A stretch of 64,000 nt of DNA from Limnobacter sp. (GTDB lineage: Bacteria > Pseudomonadota > Gammaproteobacteria > Burkholderiales > Burkholderiaceae_B): NCBI GenBank assembly GCA_029866125.1, contig JARWZZ010000009.1:1-64000 (forward strand), written 5' to 3'. The translations under genes were made by a program, and so were the position numbers. Positions 43,420 through 63,491 of this stretch are shown in pieces. Every line of letters starts with the position of its first letter. The stretch's first letter is position 1. Under the pieces are notes generated by a model that did not search any database, had not been told where the DNA came from, and saw nothing but the letters and a program-made list of their open reading frames with translations.

Positions 43420-44070
43420 TTAAACCACAGCCACTGCGGGCGGTAATTCTTTGGCCTCCAACATGCCTTCTTTGACGATGAATGCAATGATGTCGTCCAA
43501 CCCTTTTGCAACTTTCAAATTGCTGAATACAAAGGGCTTGTTGCCGCGCATTTTCTTGGCGTCTCGGTCCATCACTTCAAGACTTGCGCCGACCATGGGT
43601 GCAAGGTCGATTTTGTTGATCACCAACAAGTCTGATTTGGTGATACCTGGGCCACCCTTGCGCGGAATTTTGTCGCCTGCGGACACATCTATCACATAGA
43701 TTGTGAGGTCGCTCAACTCGGGGCTGAAGGTGGCACTTAAGTTGTCGCCACCGCTTTCTACAAACACCACATCCAACGCGCCGTGGCGGTTAATGAGTTC
43801 GTCCACAGCAGCAAGGTTCATGCTGGCGTCTTCGCGAATGGCAGTGTGTGGGCAACCACCGGTTTCTACGCCAATGATGCGGTCTGGGCTAAGGGCTTCG
43901 TGCCGGGTCAAAAACTCAGCGTCTTCTTTGGTGTAAATGTCGTTAGTGACCACGGCAATGTCGTAATGCTCACGCAGGGCAAAGCACAGGGATTTGGTCA
44001 ATGCAGTTTTACCAGAGCCCACTGGGCCGCCAATTCCAACACGCAGGGTTTGTTTGTTGATTTGATTCAT
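43420..44070 (-). CDS. ureG: Urease accessory GTPase
   Basis: [34 protein letters not shown]. Confidence 0.95.
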
Positions 44071-44093
44071 GTGGGTCCTCTTGCTTCGGTTGA

Positions 44094-44828
44094 TCAGGAT
44101 CTAAAAAGTCGGGAATACTGTGTTTCGTGCAATGCGCTGGCCATGGCCAAACCGGGTAGGCAGGCACCAATTTCGTCCTCTTCAATCAGGGTGGATTGAT
44201 ACACCGCTTCCGGAATGTCGGGCTGCAAGGCAGCAATCATGGCTTGTGCGGTGGTTTGCCCCAAAGGCACCAATTTGCTGGCGGCGGCCACTTGGTTTTC
44301 TACCCAGCTCCACAGGTAGCCTAAACAAGCCTCACGCACCGGCACATTCCATTGCAAGCAGGCTTGTGCAAACAAAACCACGAAGCTATATGCAGCCTGT
44401 TGCTTGTAAGTGCTGCTTGAATGAATGGCCTGAGGTATTGGATTTGCGCTGGGCAAAGCCAAAAAAGGGGCAACACCCAGGGTGGGCAATAGGCGGTGCA
44501 AGGCCTCGCCCATGGCGAGATCGGTCATGCGCAATTCTTTGCTTTCGCGGCAGGCCAAAGCCAAATCATTCAGTTCCTGAAGTCGGTCTGGCTGACTCAT
44601 GGCAAGGCGCAGAATGGGCAAATCCACTCGCGCCAATCCCTGAAAAATTTGTAACTGAATCCACTGCTGTACTTGTAGCGGGGTTTTAACCCAAGCCGCA
44701 TCAATTGCATATTCCAGCCCATGCGAAAACGAGTAGCCACCCACAGGCAAACTGACGCTGCACAAGTGCATGAGGCGCAGCATGCTGAGGTCAGAAAGGG
44801 TGTTGCGCTGAAGGTCTGGGGCGTTCAT
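44094..44828 (-). CDS. ureF: Urease accessory protein
   Basis: [21 protein letters not shown]; operon context. Confidence 0.92.
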
Positions 44829-45317
44829 TTAGGAATGGCTGTGGGGGTGACCATGTGCATGTGAATGTGCATGTGAATGTGCATGACCGCCACCTGCATA
44901 CGCGCCGTTCTCTGGAATAAACACCGCTTGCTGGTGTTGCGTCTCAAGGCCAAGGCCAAGCAGCATGTCTTCCAACACATGATCGGGCTTCATGCGCAGC
45001 CACAATTCACCGACTTGCACTTTCACATGGCGGTTACCCAAGTGGTAACAGGCGCGGGCAAAGGTTTGCCAATCCCGGCAGTGGGCCATGCACACGTCTT
45101 CCAGTGCGCCTTGCACCAACACATGTTGACCATTGGTGGCTTTCAGCAGCTCGCCCACCAACAAAGTTTTTCCACGGTCAAGAAATACACGTACTTCTTG
45201 GCCTGTCACGCTGGTCAATTTCAATCGGCCACGTTCACGTTGGTCAGAAGTCAGCACCACCACATCATCAATATCCGCTCGGGAATTGGTGCCCAAACGT
45301 TCGTACACTTCCAACAT
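44829..45317 (-). CDS. ureE: Urease accessory protein with His-rich tail
   Basis: C-terminal HAHSHAHSHAHGHPHSHS; operon context. Confidence 0.92.
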   Translation of the reverse strand: MLEVYERLGTNSRADIDDVVVLTSDQRERGRLKLTSVTGQEVRVFLDRGKTLLVGELLKATNGQHVLVQGALEDVCMAHCRDWQTFARACYHLGNRHVKVQVGELWLRMKPDHVLEDMLLGLGLETQHQQAVFIPENGAYAGGGHAHSHAHSHAHGHPHSHS

Positions 45318-45326
45318 GGCTCTCTC

Positions 45327-47075
45327 CTAAAACAGGCTGTACAACTGGGCCAAAGGCAGTTTGTCGGCGGGCTCGCAAGTCAACAACTCACCGTCGGCAA
45401 TGACTTCATAGGTTTGCGGGTCCACGGTGACCACGGGCAACCAGTCGTTGTGAATCATGCTGCGCTTGCTGATGTTGCGTGTATTTTTGCAAGCCACCAA
45501 GGTGCGCTTCAAACCCAACTTGTCGGGTAACCCAGCATCCAAAGCCGCTTGGCTGGTGAAGGTGACTGAGGTTTTTGCCGCAGCCAAACCCATGGCACCA
45601 AACATGTGGCGGTAATGCACAGGCTGGGGGGTGGGGATGGACGCGTTCGGGTCGCCCATGGGGGCGGCTGCGATCATTCCACCTTTGATAATCATGGACG
45701 GTTTGACTGCAAAGAACGCAGGCTTCCACAACACCAAATCAGCCAGTTTTCCCACTTCAATTGAACCGACTTCATGCGAAAAACCATGCGTAATTGCTGG
45801 GTTGATGGTGTATTTGGCAATGTAGCGTTTGGCGCGAAAGTTGTCGCAACCCAAGGCTTGATCTTCAGGCAAAAGGCCGCGCTGCACTTTCATTTTGTGG
45901 GCAGTTTGCCAAGTGCGAATGATGACTTCGCCCACGCGGCCCATGGCCTGCGAGTCTGAAGAAATCATGGAGAATGCGCCCCGGTCGTGGAAAATATCCT
46001 CGGCGGCAATGGTTTCTTTGCGGATGCGGGAATCTGCAAAAGCCACATCCTCGGGGATATTGCTGTCCAAGTGGTGGCACACCATCAGCATGTCCAAATG
46101 TTCATCCACCGTGTTGACGGTGTAGGGCCGTGTGGGGTTGGTGGATGACGGCAGCACATTCAAACGGCTGCAGGCTTTAATGATATCGGGCGCATGGCCA
46201 CCGCCTGCCCCTTCGGTGTGGTAGGTGTGAATCACACGGCCTTGAAACGCGTTCAGAGTGTCATCCACAAAACCGCTTTCATTCAGTGTGTCGGTGTGAA
46301 TTGCCACTTGCACATCGTATTTTTCTGCGACTGACAAACAGGTGTGAATGGATGCAGGCGTGGTGCCCCAATCCTCATGCAGTTTGAGCCCGCAAGCACC
46401 CGCCTCCAGTTGTTCTTCAAGTGCAGCGGGTAAACTGGCATTGCCCTTGCCCAAAAAACCCAAGTTCATGGGCACTGCATCTGTGGCTTGCAACATTTTA
46501 GCCAAGTACCACGGGCCGGGTGTGCAGGTGGTGGCGTTGGTGCCTGTGGCTGGGCCGGTGCCACCGCCAATCATGGTGGTGACACCACTCATCAAAGCTT
46601 CTTCCATTTGCTGCGGGCAAATGAAATGGATGTGTGCATCAATACCGCCTGCAGTCAAAATACTGCCTTCACCTGCAATTATTTCAGTGCCGGGGCCGAT
46701 GATGAGCGTGACGCCATCTTGCGTATCTGGGTTGCCTGCTTTGCCAATGCCTGCAATGCGCCCTTGCTTCACACCCACATCGGCTTTGACAATGCCCCAG
46801 TGGTCGATGATGAGTGCATTGGTAATCACCAAATCCATGGCTGTGGGGGCATCCGGGTTTGTAGGGTCAGGGTTGTTACACACTTGGCTTTGGCCCATGC
46901 CATCGCGGATGACCTTTCCACCACCAAACTTCACCTCATCGCCATAGGTGGTGAAATCTTTTTCCACTTGCACCCACAATTCAGTGTCGCCCAAGCGCAC
47001 CCGGTCGCCCACGGTGGGGCCAAACATTTGGGCGTAGCTGACCCGGTCGACACGGGTTTGGTCACTGGTGCTCAT
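45327..47075 (-). CDS. ureC: Urease alpha subunit
   Basis: [35 protein letters not shown]. Confidence 0.97.
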
Positions 47076-47395
47076 GGTTGGCCCCCATCCAATTGGCCCA
47101 TCACTTCACCGCGAAAGCCGTACACTTCACGCTTGCCTGCGTATTCGACCAAAACCACTTCCCTACCCTGCCCTGGCTCAAAGCGCACTGCTGTGCCTGC
47201 AATGATGTTCAGCCGGAAACCACGTGCCATGGCCCTGTCAAAGCTCAAGGCTGGATTAACCTCAAAAAAGTGGTAATGCGAGCCCACCTGAATAGGCCTA
47301 TCACCGGTATTTTCAACACGTAGCCGCACCGTCTTACGACCTTCGTTTAAGGTCAAATCGCCCGTGTTTGCAACCCGAATTTCGCCAGGAATCAT
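47072..47395 (-). CDS. ureB: Urease beta subunit
   Basis: MIPGEIRV...[22 protein letters not shown]. Confidence 0.96.
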
Positions 47396-47407
47396 GGCTT
47401 GTTGCCC

Positions 47408-47710
47408 TTACACAATGGGTTGATGAACAGTAACCAGTTTGGTACCGTCCGGGAATGTGGCTTCCACCTGCACCTCAGCAATCAGCTCGGGCACGCCCGG
47501 CATGACTTGGTCTGCAGTCAATACTGTGCGGCCGTGGCTCATCAATTCCGCCACGGTGCGCCCATCACGCGCGCCTTCCATAATTTCCATGGAAATGTAG
47601 GCCATGGCTTCGGGGTAATTCAATTTCAAGCCCCGATTAAGCCTACGCTCGGCCAGCAAGGCCGCGGTGAATATCAGCAGTTTGTCTTTTTCTCTAGGCA
47701 TCAATTCCAC
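47408..47710 (-). CDS. ureA: Urease gamma subunit
   Basis: [40 protein letters not shown]. Confidence 0.96.
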
Positions 47711-47741
47711 GAGACTCTCCTCTTCTTATGCATGTTGTTGC

Positions 47742-48644
47742 TTAGGTTCGCCATACCCTTGGCGGGCAGGCAATACGGCCCAGCAAGGCGGGGCGCAAGA
47801 TTTTCCAAACCTCAATCATCCAGCGCTTTGAAAGCTCACTGCATGAGCCTAAAGTTCGAACAAGGATGAACCCGCCCACCTCGGTCATACTGGTTTTCAA
47901 ACTGGGTTCCACTGGAATTTCACGCAAGTCGTCCAACAACTGGGCTAAACCACCACTACCGGGCTGGCTTACTAGTTGGCCTAGATGAAATGGCCCGGCT
48001 ACATACAAGCCTGTTACGGGCTTTCCCTGAAACCCGACTGGCAATTCAAATCCTGACCGTGTGCTTTCATCCATCACCAAACGCTCGCGGAGCAACAAGC
48101 GCCCTTGGGCGTAAATATTCAAGGTTTGCTTTAAACTACCCAAGTCAAAGGCCTGAAGGCTGGCGGGCAAACCCAGTGAGCAAACCTCCCACAGCATCAG
48201 CTTTGACCCCTCTTGCAAATGCACGGCGGTGTTCAAACTGGCCTGCGCATCTGGGTACACAATGGTTTCCAGCGGCAACCATTCCAAGCTTGAATCCACA
48301 CCCAAATTGAATACATTGATTTGCCTTTGTAGGGTGCGGTCAGGCCGCGCACGATACACACGGGCGGCACCGGGTGTGGTCATCAATGCCTGCGCCTTGT
48401 TACCCACATCCAACTGAACAGTCAGCTCGTCACCCGACACCAAACCACCCGGTGGGTGCAGCGGGTACACATGTGCCAGTTCAGGCCCTTCGGGGTAAAA
48501 AGCCTTTTGGACATACAAAGGGCCTTTGTGCACCACACTGGAAATAACCGTCTTGGGCGGCTCGCCCGGTGAGGTGGCCTTACAGGTCAAACCAATTTTT
48601 AAACCTGCTTTCCAGACTGAGCCTGGGTTCCAAATTGAGCCCAT
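47742..48644 (-). CDS. ureD: Urease accessory protein
   Basis: Position upstream of ureABC; YPLHPPGGLVSGDELTVQL; TTPGAARVYR. Confidence 0.93.
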   Translation of the reverse strand: MGSIWNPGSVWKAGLKIGLTCKATSPGEPPKTVISSVVHKGPLYVQKAFYPEGPELAHVYPLHPPGGLVSGDELTVQLDVGNKAQALMTTPGAARVYRARPDRTLQRQINVFNLGVDSSLEWLPLETIVYPDAQASLNTAVHLQEGSKLMLWEVCSLGLPASLQAFDLGSLKQTLNIYAQGRLLLRERLVMDESTRSGFELPVGFQGKPVTGLYVAGPFHLGQLVSQPGSGGLAQLLDDLREIPVEPSLKTSMTEVGGFILVRTLGSCSELSKRWMIEVWKILRPALLGRIACPPRVWRT

Positions 48645-49340
48645 TCAAACAGCCAAATGTTGCGCAATCAACTGATCACTCAGCTTGTCCATGGAGCCAC
48701 TGGCAACCACGCGGCCCTTTTCCATCAGCCGAAACTCCTTGCCAACTCTGCGTGCAAAACCCAACTTTTGTTCCACCAAAATCACGGTTAAGCCTTCAGT
48801 TTCATTGAGCTTGATGATCACATCCCCAATCTGTTTAACGATGTTGGGCTGAATGCCTTCATTCGGTTCGTCCAGAATCAGCACTTTGGGCTCTAGCACC
48901 AAGGCGCGACCAATCGCCAACTGCTGTTGCTGGCCGCCAGACAAGTCGCCACCACGGCGGTGCAACATGTCAGCCAATACAGGGAACAGCTCAAAAATTT
49001 TGTCCGGCACTTGTTTGGCTTTGTCTTTGCGCACAGGCAACCCTAGGCGCAGGTTTTCTTCCACAGTCAGCATCGGAAAAATTTCGCGGCCTTGTGGCAC
49101 ATAGCCAATGCCCATGTAGGGGCGCCTTTCGGCAGACAAGCCAATCAACTCTTGATCACCGATTTTGATGGAACCGCTGGCCACAGGCAGCAAGCCCATC
49201 AGGCACTTCAGCAAAGTGGTTTTACCCACGCCGTTGCGGCCCATGATGCAAGTACAAGAACCGGGGGTGACTTGCAAATCCAAATCCCACAGAATTTGGG
49301 TGCCACCGTATTTTTGATTGAGTTGCTGAATGGCGATCAT
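48645..49340 (-). CDS. urtE: Urea ABC transporter ATP-binding protein
   Basis: GRNGVGKTTLLK; LSGGQQQQLAIGRAL; context. Confidence 0.92.
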   Translation of the reverse strand: MIAIQQLNQKYGGTQILWDLDLQVTPGSCTCIMGRNGVGKTTLLKCLMGLLPVASGSIKIGDQELIGLSAERRPYMGIGYVPQGREIFPMLTVEENLRLGLPVRKDKAKQVPDKIFELFPVLADMLHRRGGDLSGGQQQQLAIGRALVLEPKVLILDEPNEGIQPNIVKQIGDVIIKLNETEGLTVILVEQKLGFARRVGKEFRLMEKGRVVASGSMDKLSDQLIAQHLAV

Positions 49341-50170
49341 GCTTCCTTCCCCAAATACACTTCAATCACATCCTTGTTGGACTGGATTTGGTCCATGGTG
49401 CCTTCAGCCAACACCGAGCCTTGGTGCAGCACCGTGACTGTTTTGGCGATGCTGCGTACAAACTCCATGTCATGCTCCACCACAATCACAGTGTGGTCGC
49501 CAGCAAGGTGAGTGAGCAGTTCAGCGGTGCGCTCGGTTTCTTGCGCAGTCATGCCCGCCACGGGCTCATCAATCAGCAGCAGTTGTGGGTCGGAGGCCAG
49601 TAGCATGCCAATTTCCAGCCACTGCTTTTGCCCGTGCGACAAAGCACCCGCCAGCATGTTGCGCTGGTCTTTCAAGCCAATGGTGGCCAACACATCATCA
49701 ATTCGGTCTTTCTGCACCGCTGACAATTGGGCAAACAAATTGAACCAGATGCCCTTGTTGGCTTTCAGGCTCATTTCCAAGTTATCCAGTACTGTGTGTG
49801 CCTCGAATACAGTGGGTTTTTGGAACTTTCGGCCAATGCCTAGGCGAGCAATTTCAGGCTCGCTGCGTTCCAGCAAATTGATGTTTTGCCCAAAATACAC
49901 ATTGCCAATGTCCGGCTGGGTTTTGCCTGTAATCACATCCATCAAGGTGGTTTTGCCCGCGCCGTTGGCACCAATCAGGCAGCGCAGTTCCCCGGTTTTG
50001 ACATACAGGTTCAAGTCATTCAACGCTTTAAAACCATCAAAACTGACAGACAACCCCTCCACATACAAAATCAGGTCGTGGGAAATATCCACCACTTCAT
50101 CTTCAGGTGCAACCGGCAACCAACGCGCTTGATTGGACACTTTGTGTTTGATTCGCTGGAATGCATTCAT
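49337..50170 (-). CDS. urtD: Urea ABC transporter ATP-binding protein
   Basis: GANGAGKTTLMDVITGKT; LSHGQKQWLEIGMLL. Confidence 0.92.
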   Translation of the reverse strand: MNAFQRIKHKVSNQARWLPVAPEDEVVDISHDLILYVEGLSVSFDGFKALNDLNLYVKTGELRCLIGANGAGKTTLMDVITGKTQPDIGNVYFGQNINLLERSEPEIARLGIGRKFQKPTVFEAHTVLDNLEMSLKANKGIWFNLFAQLSAVQKDRIDDVLATIGLKDQRNMLAGALSHGQKQWLEIGMLLASDPQLLLIDEPVAGMTAQETERTAELLTHLAGDHTVIVVEHDMEFVRSIAKTVTVLHQGSVLAEGTMDQIQSNKDVIEVYLGKEA

Positions 50171-51357
50171 ACTGTTTTCGACTCCATATTGGATTTCATG
50201 GAGCCCGCTGCCTTGAATAATCGATCACTTAAATTGAAGAACAAACCCGCCAAACCCTTCGGTAAAAACAGCGTCACCAACACAAACAATGCGCCCAGTG
50301 CAAACAGCCACGCGTCCGGCATAATGGCGGTGAATCGTGTTTTGGCATAGTTCACCAACAATGCGCCTGCAACTGCACCATACAAGGTTCCGCGCCCACC
50401 AATGGCAACCCAAATCACCACTTCAATCGAGTTCAAAGGAGAGAATTCACCCGGATTGATAATGCCCACTTGTGGCACGTACAACACCCCTGCCAAAGCA
50501 GCGATGAGCGCGGAATAAACAAACAACCACACTTTGTAATGGTCTGTGCGGTAACCGATAAAACGCACGCGGGGCTCACCATCGCGAATGGCAACAATCA
50601 CCTTACCCAAGCGGCTTTTCATGATGAAATGGCTGCTGAGGTACACCCCACACAAACACACTGCGGTGATCGCAAACAGCGCCACACGGGTGGTGTTGGA
50701 CTGCAAATCAAAACCCAGTAAATCTTTAAAATCGGTCAGGCCGTTGTTGCCACCAAAGCCCATTTCATTGCGGAAAAAGGACAGCATCAGCGCGTAGGTT
50801 AGGGCCTGCGTCATGATGGACAGGTACACCCCAGTTACCCGTGAACGAAAAGCCAACCAGCCAAACACAAAAGCAAGCAAGCCCGGCACCAGAAGGGCCA
50901 TCAACATGGCGAATGGAAACATATCCATGCCGGTCCAATACCAAGGCAGTTCCTTCCAATCCAGAAACACCATGAAGTCTGGCAACAGCGGGTTGCCATA
51001 CACACCCCGGTCGCCAATTTGGCGCATCAGGTACATGCCCATGCCGTAACCACCGAGTGCAAAAAACGCACCGTGGCCCAAACTCAAAATGCCGCAATAG
51101 CCCCACACCACATCCACCGCCAAAGCCAGCATGGCGTAACTGAGGTACTTGCCCAGCAAGGTGATGGTGTAGTTGCTGACATGAAACACTGAGCTTTCAG
51201 GGATCAATAAATTTGAAACCGAAGCAAACACCGTGAGGATCAGTAGCACGGCGACGAATGGACTTGCCCGCCCCCCAGGCTCGCGACTGGCGGTGAAGAG
51301 TTTTGAAAGCATGGACTGCTTGGATAGCTTGGAAGTGGTTGGGTCGAGCTTGCTCAT
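50167..51357 (-). CDS. urtC: Urea ABC transporter permease
   Basis: LivM-like; WGYCGILSLGHGAFFALGGYGMGMYLM. Confidence 0.92.
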   Translation of the reverse strand: MSKLDPTTSKLSKQSMLSKLFTASREPGGRASPFVAVLLILTVFASVSNLLIPESSVFHVSNYTITLLGKYLSYAMLALAVDVVWGYCGILSLGHGAFFALGGYGMGMYLMRQIGDRGVYGNPLLPDFMVFLDWKELPWYWTGMDMFPFAMLMALLVPGLLAFVFGWLAFRSRVTGVYLSIMTQALTYALMLSFFRNEMGFGGNNGLTDFKDLLGFDLQSNTTRVALFAITAVCLCGVYLSSHFIMKSRLGKVIVAIRDGEPRVRFIGYRTDHYKVWLFVYSALIAALAGVLYVPQVGIINPGEFSPLNSIEVVIWVAIGGRGTLYGAVAGALLVNYAKTRFTAIMPDAWLFALGALFVLVTLFLPKGLAGLFFNLSDRLFKAAGSMKSNMESKTV

Positions 51358-53096
51358 TCAGCGGCCCTGCCTTTTTGTGGGAACAAGCCTTTGGGCCTTT
51401 TCTGAATAAACAAAATGATGAACACCAAGATGATGATGCTGGCGAGTACCGCACCCGTCATGGGCTCCAAGAACTTGTTGGCAACACCCAGCGAGAAGGC
51501 CGCCACCAAGGTGCCCAGCAAGTTGCCCACGCCGCCAAACACCACCACCATGAATGAATCAATGATGTAGTTTTGCCCAAGGTTGGGGCCCACATTGGTC
51601 AATTGGCTTAACGCCACACCGGCAATACCAGCAATGCCAGAGCCCAAGCCGAAGGTCATAGCGTCTACCCAATCGGTGCGCACACCCATGCTTTTGGCCA
51701 TGTTTCGGTTTTGAGAAACAGCCCGCACATTCAGGCCCAGGGATGTTTTTTTCAGAATAATTTGTAGGATGGCAAACACAATCAAAGCAAAGATGAAGAT
51801 GTAAAGGCGGTTTAGGGTGATGGACAATTCGGGGTTGATCTCGACCGAGCCACTCATCCATCCGGGTTGGGACACTTGCCTATTCAGCGGTGAAAAAATG
51901 GTTCGCACCAATTGTTGAAGAATCAGGCTGATACCAAATGTGGCCAGCAAAGTTTCCAAGGGCCTGCCGTGCAGGAAGCGAATCACGCAACGCTCAATCA
52001 ACACGCCCACAGAAGCAGCCACCACAAAAGCCAGCGGAATAGCCACCCACAGGGAATAGTCAATTGCGGTGGGCATCATCAATTGCACCACATAGGTGGT
52101 GTAGGCACCCAGCATCATCATCTCGCCATGGGCCATGTTGATCACACCCATTACGCCAAAGGTAATGGCCAAGCCAATTGCGGCCAGTAACAAAACCGAC
52201 CCCAAGCTCAAGCCAAAAAACAACTGATCCAAAAACGCATACAACTTGGTGCGCATTTGCATGCCCTGTTGGGCTTCAAAGGCGGCTTTCAGTACCACGG
52301 GTTCCGTTTCAGAAAGAATCAATTCATCCAGCATGTTGCGTACCGCGGCCTGCTGGCTACCTGCCAATTGGGTCACAGCTTTGGCCCGTTCCAGTGGGTC
52401 TTTGGCGTTGCTCAAGGTGTACATGGCCAAGGCGGTGTCCATTGCTTTTTGCACCCGCTCGTTTTTCTCGGTTAAACGTACCTTTTGGATGGCGGCAATG
52501 GTGGGCTCGTCCAGCTCGGCTAGCAAGCCCAGCACTGCCTGTTCACGGATGCTGGCCTGGGGGTCATTGATTTGCAGGCGTGATACTGCGCCTTTCAAAT
52601 AAGTACGCAGCGCGTTGTTTACACGTATTTTAGTCAAGCTCATGGATTGAGCTTGAGAAGAATTTTCAGGAATAAGCTCACCCGTCAAAGCATTGCTGAG
52701 TGTGGTGCGGCCATCCTTTTCCACCTGCGCAACTAGCGCGGCGTCTTGCTCATTGAAATACAGGTTCCCATCTTGCAGGGTTTTGAACAAATTCAGCACG
52801 GGCCCAGTGGACTTGCTTTCCAGCGCAATCAGTAGCCCTTCCAACTCTGCCATCGGGGTGGTGGTTAGCGCTTTCAGTAACTCGGGTACTGTCAGTGTAG
52901 AGTAGTCAACGGGTGCGGGCTCGTCAGGTGTGTCATCAGCAGCTTCAGTGTTGGACTGGGCAAATGCCGCACCACCTGAATACAGGCACAGTGGGTCCAA
53001 CAGCGTTAAGCTTAGCAGCACTGCAAACACACTGAACAAGAGGAATCGGGGCGCAATCACAGTCGTTTCCTGAAACAAATGGTCATGAAATTTCAA
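51354..53096 (-). CDS. urtB: Urea ABC transporter permease with long N-terminal domain
   Basis: LivH-like C-terminal half; GVINMAHGEMMMLGAYTTYVVQ. Confidence 0.92.
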   Translation of the reverse strand: MKFHDHLFQETTVIAPRFLLFSVFAVLLSLTLLDPLCLYSGGAAFAQSNTEAADDTPDEPAPVDYSTLTVPELLKALTTTPMAELEGLLIALESKSTGPVLNLFKTLQDGNLYFNEQDAALVAQVEKDGRTTLSNALTGELIPENSSQAQSMSLTKIRVNNALRTYLKGAVSRLQINDPQASIREQAVLGLLAELDEPTIAAIQKVRLTEKNERVQKAMDTALAMYTLSNAKDPLERAKAVTQLAGSQQAAVRNMLDELILSETEPVVLKAAFEAQQGMQMRTKLYAFLDQLFFGLSLGSVLLLAAIGLAITFGVMGVINMAHGEMMMLGAYTTYVVQLMMPTAIDYSLWVAIPLAFVVAASVGVLIERCVIRFLHGRPLETLLATFGISLILQQLVRTIFSPLNRQVSQPGWMSGSVEINPELSITLNRLYIFIFALIVFAILQIILKKTSLGLNVRAVSQNRNMAKSMGVRTDWVDAMTFGLGSGIAGIAGVALSQLTNVGPNLGQNYIIDSFMVVVFGGVGNLLGTLVAAFSLGVANKFLEPMTGAVLASIIILVFIILFIQKRPKGLFPQKGRAAE

Positions 53097-53100
53097 TAAA

Positions 53101-53125
53101 GGCCTGCCCTATAAATGAGCAGGCC
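53101..53125 (-). terminator. Hairpin between urtA and urtB (attenuator-like)
   Basis: GGCCTGC-N11-GCAGGCC followed by TTTATTG on - strand. Confidence 0.5.
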
Positions 53126-53138
53126 CGGGGGTCAACAA

Positions 53139-54449
53139 TTAATAGTTTTGACCTGAACACTTCTTGGTTTTGGTGTTGTAGTTGCCGCATTTGATTGGGG
53201 CAGTCCAGTCTGCAATCAGGTCTTTGGAACCTGGCAGGTAGTCGGACCATGCATCACCTTCCACCACGCCTTTGGTGGCTGAAACCACTTCAAACTGGCC
53301 ATTGTCCTGAATCTCGCCAATCAACACGGGCTTGGACAAGTGGTGGTTTTTGTTCATCACAGCGGTGCCACCAGTCAGGTTTTTAACCTTCTGACCAATC
53401 ATGGCCTGCTCAACTTTGTCAGTGGCTGTGGTTTTGGCTTTTTCAACTGCCTGCACCCACATTTTGAAGCCGATGTAAGTTGCTTCCATCGGGTCATTGG
53501 TTACGCGCTTGGGGCCAGCAAAAGCTTTCCATTGCTTGATGAATGCGTCGTTTTCAGGACTCTTCACGCTTTGGAAATAATTCCATGCAGCCAAGTGGCC
53601 CACCAAAGGTTTGGTGTCGATGCCTGACAGCTCTTCCTCGCCCACAGAGAAGGCTACAACTGGAATTTTTTGTGATGTGATGCCTTGGTTACCCAACTCT
53701 TTGTAGAACGGTACGTTGGCATCGCCGTTGATGGTGGACACCACGGCAGTCTTTTTGCCAGCGCTACCAAACTTCTTGATGTCAGACACAATGGACTGCC
53801 AATCGGAATGACCGAAAGGTGTGTAGCTGATCATGATGTCTTCTTGCTTCACGCCTTTGGACTTCAAATACGCTTCCAACACTTTGTTGGTGGTGCGTGG
53901 GTACACATAGTCGGTACCTGCCAACACCCAACGCTTCACCTTCAAATCTTTCATCAGGTAGTCCACTGCGGGCACAGCCTGTTGGTTGGGTGCGGCACCG
54001 GTGTAGAACACGTTTTTGGAAGACTCTTCACCCTCGTACTGCACGGGGTAGAACAGCAAACCGTTCAACTCTTCAATCACCGGCAAAACGGATTTACGAG
54101 ATACGGAAGTCCAGCAACCGAAAATCACATCCACTTTGTCTTTGGTTAGCAGTTCGCGTGTTTTTTCAGCAAACAGGGGCCAGTTGGACGCGGGGTCCAC
54201 CACCACAGCCTCCAGCTTTTTGCCCAGCAAACCACCCTTCTTGTTTTGCTCGGCCACCATCATCAACACGGTGTCTTTCAACGTCGTTTCAGAAATGGCC
54301 ATGGTGCCCGACAAGGAGTGCAACACACCCACTTTGATGGTGTCAGCCGCGTAGGCGCTGGCCGTCATACCGATGGATGCAGCTGCTGTGGCAGCCATCA
54401 AGGCCAAATTCAGGCCCAGTTTTTTGAATTTCATAGGAAGTAACCTCAT
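53139..54449 (-). CDS. urtA: Urea ABC transporter substrate-binding protein
   Basis: DTIKVGVLHSLSGTMAISETTLKD; GCWTSVSRKSVLPV. Confidence 0.95.
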   Translation of the reverse strand: MRLLPMKFKKLGLNLALMAATAAASIGMTASAYAADTIKVGVLHSLSGTMAISETTLKDTVLMMVAEQNKKGGLLGKKLEAVVVDPASNWPLFAEKTRELLTKDKVDVIFGCWTSVSRKSVLPVIEELNGLLFYPVQYEGEESSKNVFYTGAAPNQQAVPAVDYLMKDLKVKRWVLAGTDYVYPRTTNKVLEAYLKSKGVKQEDIMISYTPFGHSDWQSIVSDIKKFGSAGKKTAVVSTINGDANVPFYKELGNQGITSQKIPVVAFSVGEEELSGIDTKPLVGHLAAWNYFQSVKSPENDAFIKQWKAFAGPKRVTNDPMEATYIGFKMWVQAVEKAKTTATDKVEQAMIGQKVKNLTGGTAVMNKNHHLSKPVLIGEIQDNGQFEVVSATKGVVEGDAWSDYLPGSKDLIADWTAPIKCGNYNTKTKKCSGQNY

Positions 54450-54693
54450 AAATGATCGGAAAGCGGAAATGCAATGGAATGCGGCAATTGGCTAAAGTAA
54501 TAAGGCCAGACCAGTGTGGGTTAAACCGCCCATTTGAGGTATGAGGCTTTTGACGCAACCGGGTACGTTATTTGACGTAGTCACAGGTGGAAACGGCTGA
54601 TTCAGGAACCTTTGACTCTGGAAGGTTACTGAAAGTCAGTTGGCAATTAACTCAAGAATCTTGACAAAAACACACACCCAGTGCTACCTTTAA

Positions 54694-55504: not shown

Positions 55505-55571
55505 GAATAACGCCCGGATTAACCAGCAAAAATGCGAAGCATTTTCGTCCGTGTTGAGCCTACAGTTAGGC
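55505..55571 (-). other. attC: attC-like site 4
   Basis: - strand GCCTAAC...AAAATGCTTCGCATTTT...GCGTTATTC. Confidence 0.7.
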
Positions 55572-55606
55572 TGGGGCATGGAGTGAAATTGGGTGAAATT
55601 CAGCTG

Positions 55607-56209: not shown

Positions 56210-56248
56210 GTTTTGCCTAGGAATAACCAAGACGTGTGTTTGCGAAAA

Positions 56249-56299
56249 GCATAACGCTTTGCTCACCGGAAAATCGGGAGCGTAGCGAATTGTTATGTT
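56249..56299 (-). other. attC: attC-like site 3 (short)
   Basis: - strand AACATAAC...CCCGATTTTCCGG...GTTATGC. Confidence 0.75.
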
Positions 56300-56302
56300 T
56301 CT

Positions 56303-56908
56303 TCATTCTCGAAGCCGCTCCTTATACATCTTTTCGACTCCGTCAACGGCACTTTGAATCTTCTGGGTAAATTCATCTTTGTCATTTACGTAGTAGACAA
56401 TTTTGTCGTTCGCCTCGACCCTTTCAGGGCTACGATCAACTTGTGCGCCTGGCCCGGCATAGGCGCCCTTCAGCCAAAAGTGGAGCCAAATCTCTGCTCG
56501 CAGAGTACCGATCAGATCCTGAATTGGCTGGAAGCAATCTGTAACTTCAGTTCCCCAAATTGCTCTCGCCTCAAGGGCGAGTGCTCGCAATTCAGATCGT
56601 TTTTCGTACAGGCTTGTCAGGCGCTCCGAATAAATACGCTGCTCTTCGTCAAGACTGCGTCCAGCTTCAACTTCCTCTTTGCGCAAAAACAGCATTGGGC
56701 TACGAACTGCCTGAATCGCATCTTGAATTTGATATGTAGTAATCAGGATATTCTTAGCAACCTGAAACTTGGATGTGCCGTGGAGTTGTCGACGCCATGT
56801 GCTTAAGCCCAGACCGCCTATGACGAGGGCACCTAATGTGCCAATAATCGCAAAGACGTCTTTGGTAAGACCGAGGTCCGCTGCGGTCAGGGTAAAGCAG
56901 ATGCTCAA
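56303..56908 (-). CDS. Cassette ORF, hypothetical single-TM protein (TTG start)
   Basis: Between attC-like sites; N-terminal hydrophobic helix; GGAG RBS. Confidence 0.65.
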   Translation of the reverse strand: MSICFTLTAADLGLTKDVFAIIGTLGALVIGGLGLSTWRRQLHGTSKFQVAKNILITTYQIQDAIQAVRSPMLFLRKEEVEAGRSLDEEQRIYSERLTSLYEKRSELRALALEARAIWGTEVTDCFQPIQDLIGTLRAEIWLHFWLKGAYAGPGAQVDRSPERVEANDKIVYYVNDKDEFTQKIQSAVDGVEKMYKERLRE

Positions 56909-56922
56909 CGGTCACTCCAAAA

Positions 56923-56996
56923 AACATAACGTAAAGGTGACCGGCACGTTGCGGCAAGAGGCCGCAACGTATCCGAGTCGACCGACCTGTTAGAGC
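56923..56996 (-). other. attC: attC-like site 2
   Basis: - strand GCTCTAAC...ACGTTGCGGC/GCCGCAACGT perfect hairpin...GTTATGTT. Confidence 0.85.
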
Positions 56997-56999
56997 TCG

Positions 57000-57530
57000 T
57001 CACATCACCCTCCACCGCACCACCCTGTATCCCTCAAAGATGCGAAACGTGACGTACACCGAGCGAAAACAGCCGAGATCATGTACTGCGGTCTGTGCCC
57101 ACATCTTCTCTACCAGCGCCATAGAACCTGAATTCAAGAACGGATAGTGAATGGAGACGAGCAAGTACCCCGGCCCGTACTTGTCTCTAAATGGAACGTA
57201 CCCATTTTTCTCCAACTTGGCCTTGACCGCCGCCACGAATTTCAGTGCGAACTCTTCATCCATGTTAATAAACGGGCCGTTACCTACTGAAACGTGCGCC
57301 TCGCCGGGAGTGGCGTACGAGTTCAAGTCTCGCGCATACGAGTCATTCCAGTACGCGGTAACGACTTCTGCCCACCGCGTAGTTCGGCCTGATTGAATGA
57401 TCGCTTCAGGCGGATCAGGCTCAGCAATGACACGATAGCTCGCGCGATGTCGACGATTCAGTTCATTGATAAGAAGTCCGACTTGAAATCGCTCGTGCTT
57501 TTCTTTGATGGTGCTGCGAGGGTTTGGCAC
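57000..57530 (-). CDS. Cassette ORF, hypothetical protein
   Basis: ORF between attC-like sites; GTG start, close to core site. Confidence 0.6.
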   Translation of the reverse strand: MPNPRSTIKEKHERFQVGLLINELNRRHRASYRVIAEPDPPEAIIQSGRTTRWAEVVTAYWNDSYARDLNSYATPGEAHVSVGNGPFINMDEEFALKFVAAVKAKLEKNGYVPFRDKYGPGYLLVSIHYPFLNSGSMALVEKMWAQTAVHDLGCFRSVYVTFRIFEGYRVVRWRVM

Positions 57531-57535
57531 GGAGA

Positions 57536-57613
57536 GCTCTAACGTTTGGTTAAGGGGCCGGCTTTAGCCGGTCCAGAGTGAGCGAAGCGAACGACTTGAA
57601 CCACTAGTTAGAC
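57536..57613 (-). other. attC: attC-like site 1
   Basis: - strand GTCTAAC-TAGTGGTTCAAG...ACCGGCTAAAGCCGGC...CTTAACCAAAC-GTTAGAGC; TGGTT(C)AAG pairs with CTTAACCA leaving one extrahelical base. Confidence 0.9.
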
Positions 57614-57624
57614 CAGCCAAGTGA

Positions 57625-58419
57625 TTACCAATTGCTGATTGCATAACCACACGCCTTGAGCTCTTTTGATACTTCAAATCTCCAGCCGCCAGCTGCATCT
57701 AAGTCAACATAGACCACCCCACTGATGTCATTCGGAGTTTCTATTTCTCCCTTGACCAAGGCGCAAACATTCTCCCTGCCTAGCTTTGCCATAAGATATC
57801 CATGTTCGAAAACAACGTTTTGTCGTGCTCTGTTTTTGGCAGGAATTTTTGATTCATGTACGCCCCGGCCGTGATCACAGGGTGTGTATAAAACTAGAGC
57901 AAAGTCAGCGTCGTTTGAATAGTGCTCAATTTTCTCGATGATGGTCATGCCTGAACTGGCTTGCTCATGAAGTATGATTGCTTTAAGGCCTAAGCTTTCT
58001 ATGAAGCGACTAACCTCATGTTTAGCCTCGTTATCTCTGCCATGAACAATAAAGACATTTCTTTTGTTTCTAGCTACCGACTTATTTGTCGCGCCTGATA
58101 TCGTGCTTTGAGTTTTTACTGGCGCTGCTGTTCCGAACTCTAGTGAGTCCAGTAGCGGTGTGAATTGCTCGGAAAGGTACGTTCTTCGTTCTGCATATGT
58201 AGAAAACTTTGGCTGTATAAAGCCCCAGAAAGAGTCCAGGTTTCTATGCAGCTTTAACCATGCTGGTAATTGATTGGAAATTTGGTGATTGCTAAGTAAT
58301 TCATAGCGAAGTTTTTCATATTCGCTAGAGTCTGCGGTTTTGCCTGTGGCATGAGCAATCAATAAATTTAACAGGTAACTTACTTTTTCAAAATCGTTTT
58401 TTAGGAAATTTGTGCTCAT
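57625..58419 (-). CDS. TIR-like domain protein (PF10137/CAP12-type) with AbiJ_NTD3-like N-terminal domain; putative defence effector
   Basis: NVFIVHGRDNEAKHEVSRFIESLGLKAIILHEQ...RARQNVVFEHGYLMAKLGRENVCALVKGEIETPNDISGVVYV; N-term DSFWGFIQPKFSTYAERR. Confidence 0.82.
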   Translation of the reverse strand: MSTNFLKNDFEKVSYLLNLLIAHATGKTADSSEYEKLRYELLSNHQISNQLPAWLKLHRNLDSFWGFIQPKFSTYAERRTYLSEQFTPLLDSLEFGTAAPVKTQSTISGATNKSVARNKRNVFIVHGRDNEAKHEVSRFIESLGLKAIILHEQASSGMTIIEKIEHYSNDADFALVLYTPCDHGRGVHESKIPAKNRARQNVVFEHGYLMAKLGRENVCALVKGEIETPNDISGVVYVDLDAAGGWRFEVSKELKACGYAISNW

Positions 58420-58448
58420 TCACGGAGTACCGGTTCAGTTTGTTTTAG

Positions 58449-58455
58449 GTCTAAC
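58449..58455 (-). other. Recombination core site GTTAGAC (attI- or attC-derived) at the start of the TIR cassette
   Basis: - strand AAATCAAGTTAGACC; matches GTTRRRY. Confidence 0.55.
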
Positions 58456-58781
58456 TTGATTTATCGAACAATAACGGCGATATCCATTTATCCGCGCATG
58501 GCAAATGTTTACATTAAATAAACTATTTCAAATATTTGCCAAGCATCGCATGAACACGATGAAAAATAAACCTTGGTTATTTACCACCAAACGTTGAGCC
58601 TGGAACTCGATTTCGAAGCTCAGAACCATCATCGACAACTGCCAAAGTTCTTAAGACTGCTTTTGCAAATAACTCAAACGCTTCGTCCATAAGTCCAAAT
58701 GACCGCTTCGGCCAAAATCTAGACGTTGAATACACTTATTGGGCCAAGGAATCCGTCTGCAATAGCTACCATGCTCACTTG

Positions 58782-59051
58782 TTATCGACGAGACTCTTGA
58801 ACATCTTTTGCCAGCCAAGCTTTGATAAGAGACTGATAGGGAATGTCTCTTTTGTTTGCTTCGATTTTGATGCTATCCAATAATCCTTCGGGAAGCCTCA
58901 ATGAAATTGTCTTGGTTGAGGGTTTAAGATTCGGAAATATTGCCCGCTGGGCCCTACTCAAATCGAGGTATTCACTTGAATCATGGCTTTCCCAGAATTC
59001 ACGTTCATCTTTCTCGGTTTCGAATTTTGGAAGTGACTTAAGCTCTTTCAT
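58782..59051 (-). CDS. brnA: BrnA-like (CopG/RHH) antitoxin
   Basis: FWESHDSSEYLDLSRAQRAIFPNLKPSTKTISLRLPEGLLDSIKIEANKRDIPYQSLIKAWL. Confidence 0.78.
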   Translation of the reverse strand: MKELKSLPKFETEKDEREFWESHDSSEYLDLSRAQRAIFPNLKPSTKTISLRLPEGLLDSIKIEANKRDIPYQSLIKAWLAKDVQESRR

Positions 59052-59154: not shown

Positions 59155-60066
59155 TCACTGATTCCTACTCAACACCCTCAACGCAATCCCCGCCGCAGCA
59201 GTGCGGTTTTCAACACCCAGTTTGGGAAACACCTGCTCCAAGTGTTTGTTCACTGTACGTGGGCTCATTGCCAAAATTTCGGCCACCTCCCGATTGGTTT
59301 TGCCATTGGCAATCCAGTACAACACTTCGGCCTCACGGTCGGTTAAATTCAGTTGCTCTTTCAGCAGTGGGGCATCCATGGTTTTGTGGCCATCAATCAG
59401 CCTGAACAGTCGGTGGCCATTGGGTTCGCTGCCCACCAAGCGGATAAACAGGGGGTAGCCCAAGCCGCGTAGGGACAATTGGCTGTTTGAATCCGGTTCC
59501 TGCGACATCCATGTCCGCAATTGCTGGGACAAAATTTGGTTTTGCCAATCCTCGGTGGCATTGGCGTTGGCCAGTAAGTCGTAGGTTTGGGGGGTGGCCC
59601 ACAGCACTTGCCCCAAAGCGTTGGCTGTTAAAAGGTGCTGGCCTGCGTGGTCCAATGCAGAATACGCGCTGTGAGTTAAACGCGCATTGGCTAGGTGCAC
59701 TTTCATGCGGGCAATCAGCTCGTTGGGTTTGACGGGTTTAATCAAGTAGTCCACGCCGCCTACTTCAAGGCCGCGCACTATGTCTTCGGTGTCGGTCAGG
59801 CCGGTCATAAAAATAACCGGGATGCTCGCCAATGCGGGGTTGGCTTTCAGCAATCGGCAGGCTTCAAAGCCATCCATTTGCGGCATCAGGGCGTCCATCA
59901 AAATCAAGTCGGGGCGAATGCGTTGGGCAATGGTCAGCGCCTGTTTGCCTTCCAGCGCAACCAGCACATCCATGCCCGCATTTTCCAGCGTATCGTTGAT
60001 CATGCTGAGGGAGTCGGCCGAGTCGTCCACCACCAGCACCACGTCGCGGCGTTGTTTGCTCATCAT
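59155..60066 (-). CDS. Response regulator, REC plus LuxR-type HTH
   Basis: VLVVDDSADSLSMINDTL, LMDALMPQMDG; LTDREAEVLYWIANGKTNREVAEILAMSPRTVNKHLEQVFPKLGV. Confidence 0.92.
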   Translation of the reverse strand: MMSKQRRDVVLVVDDSADSLSMINDTLENAGMDVLVALEGKQALTIAQRIRPDLILMDALMPQMDGFEACRLLKANPALASIPVIFMTGLTDTEDIVRGLEVGGVDYLIKPVKPNELIARMKVHLANARLTHSAYSALDHAGQHLLTANALGQVLWATPQTYDLLANANATEDWQNQILSQQLRTWMSQEPDSNSQLSLRGLGYPLFIRLVGSEPNGHRLFRLIDGHKTMDAPLLKEQLNLTDREAEVLYWIANGKTNREVAEILAMSPRTVNKHLEQVFPKLGVENRTAAAGIALRVLSRNQ

Positions 60067-63000
60067 CGAGGAACCTCAGCCAGCAATTGGCTCATGCGCT
60101 CGAACTGGCACATGCGCGTTAAGTCCTGCAAATGGGTCAAGGTGGGCTTTGGCATGTCGGGTAAGTGTTCCAATTGTTCTAGAACAAGCAGCACACCCTT
60201 GCGGTAACCCATTTCAGCATTCACCTGCAACTCAGCCAGCAGGGCCGTTTTGGGGAAGCTCAATTTTTCATGAAAGGGCAAGTTGGGGCTCAGCCTGTGC
60301 GCCTCTGCGTCATTCTTGGGCAGGTATTCCCACTCCAAATCCAAGTGCACGCCAATGGTTTGCAGCAGCTTTTGGTTGTTAATGGGTTTAATCAAATATT
60401 CGCTGAACAAAAACTTGTCCTCATCCTGCCGGTGTTGTTCATTCAAATCAGCGGATAGCATAAGCACGGGCTGCGTGTACCCGGTTTTGCGCAAGTGGCG
60501 CACCAAGCTCAAACCATCCATCACTGGCATGGCCACATCCAGAATAAAAAGGTCAATGTTCTGAACTTCGCTTATGGACTCCAAAAGCTGCACACAGGCC
60601 TGCCCATTGTTGGCCTCCAACACCTGAAAGCCCAAAGGCACCAATAGGTCGGACAAAAAGCCGCGCAACACGGGGTCGTCATCCACCAAGCAAACCGTAC
60701 GCCTTGGGCCTTGGTAGCCCTTGATAAGCAGGGGCTCCTCAGGCAGGGCTTTGGGGCTTTGCACCCACGGCAACATCAGGGTGACAGTAAATGTACTGCC
60801 CTGCCCCACTTCGCTTTGCAGCTTCAGGTTACCGCCCATTACATCAGTCAGCAAACGCACAATCGTCAAACCCAAACCCGTGCCGGGTAGGTTCATGGTG
60901 TCTTGATTGCGAATGCGTTCAAAGGGCTGAAAAATCCGTTCTTGGTCATCGACTGAAATGCCAGGCCCTGTGTCTTGCACCTTGAATTCTGCCACTTGGT
61001 TGCGATAGCGTATTTGCAAAACCACCCCGCCTTCGCGGGTGTACTTCACCGCATTGGACAACACATTAATCAATATTTGCCGCAAACGTTTTTCATCGGT
61101 AGAAACCATGGTGGGCAAAGGGTCAAGCACCTCACACACAAAACGAATGCCCTTTTGCGAGGCTTGCAAGCCAAAAAGGGTGTTCATCTCAGCAATAAAA
61201 TCCGGCAGGTTTACTTGGCTTTTGTTCAGGCCCAGCCGCCCTGCTTCAATTTTTGAAATATCAAGCAAACCTTCAATCAAATCCGTCAAATACTGGCCAC
61301 TACGTTGAATGGTGTTCAGCCCGTCCCGGTGTGAAGGCGGTGTAACAGGGTTTTCAGCCAACAACTGCGCGTACCCCAAAATAGATTGCAGCGGCGTGCG
61401 CAACTCATGGCTAATGCCGCTGAGGTAACGGCTTTTGGCATCATTGGCACGTTCAGCCAACTCTTTGGCTTGTTGCAGCGCAAAGTCAGTCAGCTTGTGG
61501 GCTTCAATTTCTCGCACCAGTTTGCGGGTTTGACGGTTGGATTCTGTTTGCGCCACCAAGCGGCTTTCATGCGCCAGCAAAAATAGCCAAGCCACCACAC
61601 CCGATACAATCAGCAAAATAAAATACATCATCACCATGGCTTGGCTCAATAGGTGAGCCTCGGCCTGCGTGTCGGTTTGCAATTGGCGGTATACCACCGA
61701 CACCAGTGCCGCGTTCAGCATGCCCATCAACGCCCACAAACCCAAAAAGCGGCCAAAGCGTGAATTGATTCGTTTCACCCACCGGTGCGGGAACAGCAGA
61801 TGCATCAACGCAAGGGCTTGGTCTGACAGGCGGGCTTTGGGTTTGCAACTGTCCAGGCAACGAACATCCAGCGAGCAACACAGGGAGCAAATTGCACTTT
61901 CATACGCGGAGCAATGGCTCATGTCCGGGGATTCAAATTCGTTCTCGCAAATCACACACTTGTGAATCGATGTTTTGAAGCCGTACACATTGCGCTCTAC
62001 ACGCACGGGAATCATTTCAATGGATTGCCGGGCCAGGTAAAAACGGCTTTTGGTTAAAATGGCAATTGCAGGCACACTCACAAAGCACACCGCAAGGCTG
62101 ACGAAATGCGAAAGCTGCGCTGTTACTTCGCCAAACACCCCCAAATAACACAGCAAGCCCATGCTGGAGGCCAGAATCATCGACCCCACACCCACCGGGT
62201 TGATGTCATACAAATGCGCCCGCTTAAACTCCACGAATGATGGGCTTAAACCCAAAGGTTTGTTGATCAATAAGTCAGCCGCCAGTGAACCCAACCAACT
62301 CACAGCCACAATGGCAAAAACGCCTAGAATGGCCTCCAGCGCCTGATAAATGCCTAACTCCATCAGGATCAAAGCAAGCGTGACATTGAACACCAGCCAC
62401 ACCACGCGGCCGGGGTGGCTGTGCGTTACCCTCGAGAAAAAATTAGACCATGCAATGGACCCTGCATAGGCATTGGTGACATTGATTTTCATTTGCGACA
62501 CAATCACCATCAACCCGGCCAGCACCAGCGACACGGAAGGTGATTCTGTCAGGTAGGTGAACACCCGTTGGTACATGCGGGTGGGGTCGCTGGCCTCCAA
62601 TACGCTTGCGCCGGAAGTCACCGCAAGGTAAGCCAAGAAAGAGCCCAGCAGCATTTTAATCATGCCAATGAACACCCAGCCCGGCCCAGCCAACACCAGC
62701 CAAGTCCACCACTCTTTGCTGTTTTTGGCGTTTTTTTCGGGCAAGAAGCGCAGGTAATCCACCTGCTCGCCAATTTGGGCCACCATGGCAAACAACACAG
62801 ATGCAGCAGCACCAAACAGCAAAATATCAAAGCCGCCTTGCTGGGCTGCATCGGGCTTAAATTCAGTCCAAGCACCCACCTGCGGAAACTCATAAGCCAC
62901 CACCACAACAAGGGCGGTGCATTGCAAAACAATCCAAATACCCTGTGTGCCCACCTGAAATTTGCTGATGGCGGTGATGCCGTGCGTCACAATTGGAATC

Positions 63001-63491
63001 ACCGCCACGGCGCACAAAAAATAGCCCAATGCCAGTGGGATGTTAAAAAGCAGGTTCAAGGCCGATGCAAGAATGGCGGCCTCAATCGCGAAAAATAGAA
63101 AGGTAAACGACGCGTAAATCAGCGAGGTGACGGTTGAGCCCATGTAGCCAAACCCCGCACCACGGGTGAGTAAATCAATGTCCAAACCGTGTTTGGCAGA
63201 GTGGTACGCAATTGGAAAACCGATGATGAAAAACAGCGTACACACCACCAGCATGGCGGCCACGGTGTTGTAAAAACCATAGCTAAGCGTAACCGCTGCG
63301 GCAATGCCCTCTAAGGCCAAAAAGGCAGTGGCACCCAAGGCTGTTTTACCCACACGGGAAATGGGCATGTGGCGGGCTTTGCCTGCGGTAAAACGCAGGG
63401 CGTAGTCTTCCATGGTTTGGTCGGCCACCCACTTGTTGTAGTGGCGGCGAACCTTAAATACGCGCTGTGAAGCTGTCATGACATAAGCCAA
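60063..63491 (-). CDS. NCS1-family transporter-like / histidine kinase / REC fusion (hybrid sensor kinase)
   Basis: N-terminal ~470-aa multi-TM NCS1-like region; Cys-rich linker; H-box ISHELRTPLQSILGYAQ; N/G boxes; REC LFILDVAMPVMDG. Confidence 0.85.
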   Translation of the reverse strand: MAYVMTASQRVFKVRRHYNKWVADQTMEDYALRFTAGKARHMPISRVGKTALGATAFLALEGIAAAVTLSYGFYNTVAAMLVVCTLFFIIGFPIAYHSAKHGLDIDLLTRGAGFGYMGSTVTSLIYASFTFLFFAIEAAILASALNLLFNIPLALGYFLCAVAVIPIVTHGITAISKFQVGTQGIWIVLQCTALVVVVAYEFPQVGAWTEFKPDAAQQGGFDILLFGAAASVLFAMVAQIGEQVDYLRFLPEKNAKNSKEWWTWLVLAGPGWVFIGMIKMLLGSFLAYLAVTSGASVLEASDPTRMYQRVFTYLTESPSVSLVLAGLMVIVSQMKINVTNAYAGSIAWSNFFSRVTHSHPGRVVWLVFNVTLALILMELGIYQALEAILGVFAIVAVSWLGSLAADLLINKPLGLSPSFVEFKRAHLYDINPVGVGSMILASSMGLLCYLGVFGEVTAQLSHFVSLAVCFVSVPAIAILTKSRFYLARQSIEMIPVRVERNVYGFKTSIHKCVICENEFESPDMSHCSAYESAICSLCCSLDVRCLDSCKPKARLSDQALALMHLLFPHRWVKRINSRFGRFLGLWALMGMLNAALVSVVYRQLQTDTQAEAHLLSQAMVMMYFILLIVSGVVAWLFLLAHESRLVAQTESNRQTRKLVREIEAHKLTDFALQQAKELAERANDAKSRYLSGISHELRTPLQSILGYAQLLAENPVTPPSHRDGLNTIQRSGQYLTDLIEGLLDISKIEAGRLGLNKSQVNLPDFIAEMNTLFGLQASQKGIRFVCEVLDPLPTMVSTDEKRLRQILINVLSNAVKYTREGGVVLQIRYRNQVAEFKVQDTGPGISVDDQERIFQPFERIRNQDTMNLPGTGLGLTIVRLLTDVMGGNLKLQSEVGQGSTFTVTLMLPWVQSPKALPEEPLLIKGYQGPRRTVCLVDDDPVLRGFLSDLLVPLGFQVLEANNGQACVQLLESISEVQNIDLFILDVAMPVMDGLSLVRHLRKTGYTQPVLMLSADLNEQHRQDEDKFLFSEYLIKPINNQKLLQTIGVHLDLEWEYLPKNDAEAHRLSPNLPFHEKLSFPKTALLAELQVNAEMGYRKGVLLVLEQLEHLPDMPKPTLTHLQDLTRMCQFERMSQLLAEVPR

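Follow-up and report, generated by a model that had tools for sequence, protein, structure and literature searches.

Sensor Gene and Its Surroundings

The window analyzed here, 64,000 nucleotides of contig JARWZZ010000009.1 from Limnobacter sp. (assembly GCA_029866125.1), encodes a hybrid histidine kinase whose N-terminal half is a divergent NCS1-type transporter domain. We examined this sensor as a candidate receptor for urea and short amides, together with its partner response regulator and the urea-uptake operon that the pair would control (Table 1). The sensor gene, 60063–63491, is a single unbroken minus-strand open reading frame (ORF) of 1142 codons counted from a TTG at 63491; an ATG at 63479, where the homologues begin, is the likely start. 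A frame-fusion artefact was rejected, as the identical fusion is present in hundreds of genomes. The HisKA, HATPase_c, and receiver domains all exceeded Pfam gathering scores and carried the catalytic His, Asp, and Lys residues of a hybrid histidine kinase. The helical tail behind the receiver is conserved, with an invariant Gly1095. HPt identity for this tail was rejected because the conserved His is absent.

The start of the regulator gene and the stop of the kinase gene share 4 nt (ATGA), and the regulator combines a receiver with a GerE helix-turn-helix (HTH), as in NarL/LuxR-type regulators. The same strand carries urtABCDE and ureDABCEFG farther on. The window UrtA exceeded the TIGR03407 cut-off; the names UreD to UreG were assigned from sequence and gene order, not from a hidden Markov model scan. 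A first-pass annotation of this DNA had correctly given the span of the sensor gene (with no strand), its hybrid kinase type, and its setting among urea uptake and urease genes.

Table 1. Positions of the sensor gene, its domains, and associated features in the window.
Feature	Positions	Strand	Details	Basis
Whole sensor gene	60063..63491	-	NCS1-like domain, 8-Cys module, 2 transmembrane (TM) helices, hybrid histidine kinase	
NCS1-like LeuT-fold domain	62052..63374	-	~residues 40–480; 12 predicted TM helices	AlphaFold2 + Foldseek, hhalign
8-Cys module	61845..61958	-	residues 512–549; C-x2-C-x11-C-x7-C-x2-CC-x5-C-x3-C	invariance in family
Predicted two-helix hairpin TM13-14	61557..61760	-	~residues 578–645; leads into DHp helix	AlphaFold2 model
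HisKA/DHp	61239..61439	-	residues 685–751; phospho-acceptor His695 (SHELR)	Pfam
HATPase_c	60771..61100	-	residues 798–907	Pfam
Receiver domain	60354..60695	-	residues 933–1046; Asp985 and Lys1035 invariant	Pfam + homologue comparison
C-terminal helical tail	60078..60245	-	residues 1083–1138	alignment + predicted structure
Partner response regulator	59155..60066	-	receiver + LuxR/NarL HTH; recognition helix SPRTVNKHLEQ	ORF + Pfam
Predicted operator	54564..54579	.	TACGTTATTTGACGTA; 7-2-7 inverted repeat, 1 mismatch to family consensus; ~115 bp upstream of urtA	
Predicted target operon urtABCDE	48645..54449	-		
urtA	53139..54449	-		
urtB	51354..53096	-		
urtC	50167..51357	-		
urtD	49337..50170	-		
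urtE	48645..49340	-		
Urease genes ureDABCEFG	43420..48644	-	same direction as urt	order conserved in loci L016 and L092

Relation of the N-Terminal Half to NCS1 Transporters

Sequence searches of Pfam, NCBIfam, and PDB found no transporter family for the N-terminal half of the sensor. PF02133 matched neither the window protein nor 43 homologues, loose thresholds included, and TIGR00800 was not among the matches listed for the window protein. Structure and profile comparison resolved the relationship. Foldseek with the full-length sensor model returned only kinases among the matches listed, so an N-terminal AlphaFold2 model was used (residues 1–670, built on 43 sequences; pTM 0.77). Against PDB, this model placed CodB/Mhp1 structures at all of ranks 1–5 (E 2.4e-9 to 1.8e-7, TMt 0.61–0.69), with Nramp, SLC5, and SLC6 structures below them. 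Comparison of the sensor family with six genuine NCS1 proteins by hhalign gave a probability of 98.9 and an E-value of 1.9e-17 over 397 columns. An intermediate protein from another genome, L115, matched the sensor-family profile (7e-44) and also exceeded the gathering score of PF02133. The N-terminal half of the sensor is a divergent NCS1-related (CodB/Mhp1-like) domain; the NCS1-like sensor domain proposed at first pass is therefore borne out by fold, profile–profile comparison, and intermediate, while being invisible to Pfam and NCBIfam.

L115 (7949–9436, +) is likely the link between classical NCS1 proteins and the sensor family. It has no Cys module, carries Arg at the position of Lys335 in the kinases, and adjoins a carbon–nitrogen hydrolase gene.

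Distribution and Gene Neighborhoods

At least 559 loci encoding the sensor family were confirmed in GTDB genomes, and the family occurred in 16 of 274 genomes of the class and 53 of 399 of the phylum. Relatives of the sensor were not found in the viral collection. Neighbors were counted at the 62 loci with full 10-kb flanks out of the best 80. Within 10 kb of the kinase, a NarL/LuxR regulator was present at every locus (62/62), a UrtA-type gene at 54/62, a formamidase gene (FmdA) at 48/62, and urease genes at 3/62. Across genomes sampled evenly from the class, UrtA was encoded in 13 of the 16 genomes with the kinase versus 59 of the 258 others (Fisher p = 3e-6, uncorrected for phylogeny). Two arrangements were seen. 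Clade A (the window, Amphritea, Oceanobacter) has kinase, regulator, urt, and in some cases ure genes, all on one strand. In clade B (Pseudomonas, Alcanivorax, Bradyrhizobium, Methylomicrobium), the kinase is divergent from a second urt-type operon containing fmdA.

When 43420–63491 was compared with loci L009–L021 and L092–L095, the window sensor was ~64–76% identical to relatives in its own genus and in Oceanospirillum and Amphritea, and ~50% identical to the copy of a same-family genome (G024); in the tree, it nests among Oceanospirillales. These relationships suggest that the sensor–urt cluster may have been exchanged horizontally between Burkholderiales and Oceanospirillales. Between the regulator and urtA, the window contains an island (54694–59051) with a RelE-type toxin and HTH antitoxin, a CAP12/Pycsar-type TIR protein, a CopG antitoxin, and unknown genes. 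In relative G011 (L092), regulator and urtA are directly adjacent, and the operator described below has stayed with urtA.

Predicted Operator of the Partner Regulator

A dyad search of 49 non-redundant urtA/kinase intergenic regions ranked TACGTCA-N2-TGACGTA first, in 31 of 49 regions versus at most 10 in shuffles. Its 7-2-7 layout is that of NarL sites (PMC7419079), as expected here because the partner regulator belongs to the NarL family. With up to 3 mismatches, the operator was found in 40 of 63 kinase-adjacent urtA intergenic regions, compared with 13 of 1260 shuffles; 32 of the 63 retained it at ≤2 mismatches. None of 40 urtA upstream regions from kinase-less genomes contained it at ≤3 mismatches to the consensus, and the contrast between kinase-adjacent and kinase-less promoters was significant at ≤2 mismatches (p = 2e-9). 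The operator also follows the genes: its position moves along with urtA in clade A, and at locus L097 it sits between the kinase and a transporter–formamidase operon. In the window, the operator is the sole site in the genome with ≤1 mismatch; since ~0.5 such sites are expected by chance per genome, it convinces only through its position. A sigma-70 promoter scan upstream of the window urtA found none. One relative contains a second near-perfect operator-like site (G005:C12:223858-223873), which possibly marks another target gene.

Operator type covaried with the recognition helix of the regulator. GTCA-type operators were paired with Asn in 34 of 34 cases (3 of these helices were read by eye from listed helices), and GCAA-type operators with Asp in 16 of 16. 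The latter belong to Bradyrhizobium/Afipia, where TACGCAA half-sites accompany replacement of Asn by Asp. This covariation points directly at the partner regulator as the putative reader of the operator. We regard it as highly probable that the urea-uptake genes are the regulatory target of the sensor and its regulator.

Binding Pocket and Ligand Class

Pocket residues were matched through the hhalign alignment to CodB, with residue roles taken from the work on CodB (PMC9379551). Thr278/Thr279, the Na2 side-chain ligands of CodB, correspond to Lys335/Ile336 in the sensor, which are invariant in the kinases. Gln105 is replaced by Thr130, and Trp108 by Phe133, which keeps the aromatic character. 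Stacking Phe204 aligns with Met/Leu236 or Val237; the choice is ambiguous because of a one-residue gap, and neither residue is aromatic. The two-aromatic substrate sandwich of NCS1 proteins (Trp108, Phe204) is not preserved in the sensor family. Asn280, Tyr285, Asp213, and Arg216 are retained as Asn337, Tyr342, Asp245, and Arg248, and Glu137 of the sensor lies four residues past the Trp108 position, where Mhp1 has Gln121. The aligned pocket positions are nearly invariant across 112 relatives.

Because invariant Lys335/Ile336 replace both Na2 threonines, the pocket is predicted to be sodium-independent; if the domain transports at all, it would do so with protons, as CbrA does. That the sensor actually transports its ligand is possible, and we hold it in some doubt. 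The lost sodium chemistry and the one lost base-stacking aromatic would speak against a classical nucleobase/sodium symporter and fit a small hydrogen-bonding ligand. Divergent copies occur in genome G177 as a pair (L099 5852–9526, −; L100 8023–11838, +) with Cys in place of Thr130, one of which adjoins genes resembling RuBisCO/cbbQ/cbbO by eye; this pair may possibly have a different ligand.

Two other accounts of this domain were weighed. Its NCS1 homology could mean that a classical ligand (purine, pyrimidine, allantoin, or hydantoin) was kept and that the kinase senses a precursor in anticipation of urea, which purine and allantoin breakdown can yield. The altered base sandwich, with Phe204 lost, Phe as the other aromatic, and Thr for Gln105, argues against this (PMC9379551), as do the neighboring genes, which are for urea/amide importers, formamidase, and amidase (no systematic search for purine catabolism genes was made), and we consider the idea unlikely. 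The tight linkage of the kinase to urtABCDE could also reflect a transporter part with no ligand of its own, converting UrtABCDE activity or nitrogen status into a signal by protein contacts. Other kinases do read transporter state; however, nearly invariant pocket residues would be needless in a ligand-free domain, and genome G303 has no UrtA and a stand-alone paralogue of the transporter in its place, which makes such a converter quite improbable. As relatives are linked to formamidase or amidase, we prefer urea and short-chain amides over purines or allantoin, and this ligand class is a probable one.

Eight-Cysteine Module and Stand-Alone Transporters

All eight Cys were kept in the 112 of 112 sensor-family members aligned. 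When the module alone was used as a query against 249 genomes, it recovered family members only, plus one marginal partial match at 7.6e-4. In the model, whose confidence here is modest (pLDDT ~60–73), the module is rich in beta structure and includes a short helix. CRIPT, zinc-finger-183-like, and treble-clef identities were rejected, with matches at or near chance level.

Proteins with no kinase place this module more precisely. At L097 (9093–10943, +) in genome G303, a stand-alone transporter with the pocket and eight Cys of the sensor ends just past them. It lies ahead of a gene for the formamidase FmdA (NF045496 equivalog) and is oriented divergently from the kinase; the arrangement recurs in relatives of the same genus. 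A second stand-alone type (L138 1378–3123, +) has the same eight Cys and precedes an amidase gene (PF01425). Since these kinase-less transporters also end with it, the module is part of the transporter and not of the linker. The first-pass annotation had described a Cys-rich linker with a probable metal or redox site; the segment is there letter for letter, and only its status as a mere linker falls away. With 12 predicted TM helices ahead of it, the module is expected in the cytosol, and in that compartment metal binding (most likely zinc, at two four-Cys sites) would be more plausible than disulphides for the eight Cys. A probable metal site, as in the first-pass annotation, is supported.

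The stand-alone NCS1-like transporters beside formamidase or amidase genes are candidates for an undescribed amide-transporter family. In a tree rooted on L115, a single distant outgroup, they branch below all kinases, a placement that is suggestive only. Two proteins (L113 5502–8183, −; L114 5666–8362, −) carry the transporter and the module on a plain histidine kinase with no receiver, and another kinase (L116 6842–8710, +) retains no more than a vestige of the module after losing the transporter part.

Absolute conservation of the eight Cys, in a window whose target cluster ends in a nickel-dependent urease, raises the question of whether the module is the true sensor (of redox state, of zinc, or of the nickel that urease needs), with the transporter as its anchor or supplier. 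Its occurrence on kinase-less transporters, and clades tied to formamidase and not to urease, argue otherwise, and we judge this reading very unlikely.

Proposed Mechanism

The best explanation of the whole, which we consider probable, is a transceptor-type sensor kinase for urea and short amides that regulates urtABCDE via the operator. The central pocket of the divergent NCS1 domain would bind urea or a related amide of short chain length. The ensuing conformational change would leave the 12-TM bundle at its end, travel through the cytosolic, probably zinc-binding module and the two-helix hairpin, and reach the DHp helices. There it would set phosphorylation of His695 and, through it, that of the neighboring NarL-type regulator; the fused receiver, with Asp985, would serve as a relay or brake within the molecule. 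Once phosphorylated, the regulator dimer would bind the operator and activate urtABCDE, and probably also the urease genes behind it. In this scheme, we infer the ligand identity, the direction of regulation, the signal path, and the metal; the activating direction is assumed by analogy with Methylophilus data.

Several observations weigh against this interpretation. The Fisher tests carry no phylogeny correction, 8 of the 62 loci lack urtA or urtB in their flanks, and the genomes of carriers G177, G280, and G303 encode no UrtA at all; carriers lacking urt genes mean that the ligand may be broader. The divergent G177 copies have Cys at Thr130, the Cys module is modeled with modest confidence, a site as good as the window operator arises by chance in about every second genome, and the operator/helix covariation represents about one evolutionary event (the Bradyrhizobium/Afipia lineage). 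The first-pass annotation had predicted sensing of urea or a nitrogen-rich precursor: control of urea uptake finds backing in conserved synteny, operator, and covariation, and the ligand is refined to urea and short-chain amides, in preference to purines and allantoin.

The urt genes are usually discussed under general nitrogen control, and the membrane-level sensing of external urea by bacteria is, to our knowledge, unclear. The locus offers a dedicated candidate urea sensor with its regulator, operator, and target, shared by hundreds of Pseudomonadota (species of Pseudomonas and Bradyrhizobium among them), and brings to light a candidate amide-transporter family with a conserved 8-Cys module that was previously unrecognised. 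Literature searches found no description of an NCS1–kinase fusion or of a urea/formamide sensor kinase; similar kinases next to urt genes are listed in the tables of two genome papers, which do not comment on their function (PMC2907700, PMC13296017). We tentatively suggest a distinct transceptor class, namely amide/urea sensors of NCS1 origin that contain an 8-Cys metal module, have lysine where sodium would bind, descend from undescribed sodium-independent, free-standing amide transporters, and are dedicated to a single operator before a urea/amide importer.

Comparison with Known Systems

CodB and Mhp1 share the fold of the sensor domain and recognisable homology with it, including the Asp213-x-x-Arg216 pair, Asn280, and Tyr285 (PMC9379551). 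Unlike them, the sensor has lost the sodium ligands and one stacking aromatic, has gained the Cys module and a kinase, and lies below Pfam/TIGR detection. The fmdCABDEF cluster of Methylophilus resembles the clade B target operons in joining an amide/urea ABC importer to FmdA formamidase, and the available part of that report describes no NCS1 sensor kinase for the cluster (PMC10781810).

Among transporter-type sensor kinases, CbrA of Pseudomonas (PMC13022988, PMC7096432) is likewise a LeuT-fold transporter fused to a kinase, with a partner regulator of nutrient-use genes. In CbrA, the Na2 site is taken by lysine K196 and protons drive transport (PMC13022988); Lys335 of the sensor aligns with an Na2 ligand. 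In contrast, CbrA belongs to SLC5 and not NCS1, has a STAC four-helix linker and PAS domain where the sensor has the 8-Cys module and two extra TM helices, and senses histidine rather than the urea or amide proposed here. SLC5-STAC membership (CbrA/CrbS) was rejected for the sensor because NCS1 structures outrank all SSS structures in Foldseek. A STAC four-helix domain was rejected as well, since two long helices and a Cys module rich in beta structure stand in its place in the model (no dedicated STAC profile was run). CrbS/CrbR and RpuS/RpuR (PMC5715377, PMC9100948) similarly pair a transporter-type sensor kinase with uptake genes among the targets, and CrbR is, like the partner regulator, LuxR-type; it acts on an inverted repeat, as the partner regulator is predicted to do. 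CrbS and RpuS differ in their SLC5-STAC architecture, their signals (acetate or pyruvate), their ACTU-motif operator, and the lack of a Cys module. The ammonium sensor kinase Ks-Amt5 (PMC5764959) is also an uptake transporter turned nitrogen-source sensor by fusion to a histidine kinase, with an Amt fold unrelated to NCS1. If the proposed function is correct, the sensor would extend transporter–kinase transceptors from SLC5 and Amt to NCS1.

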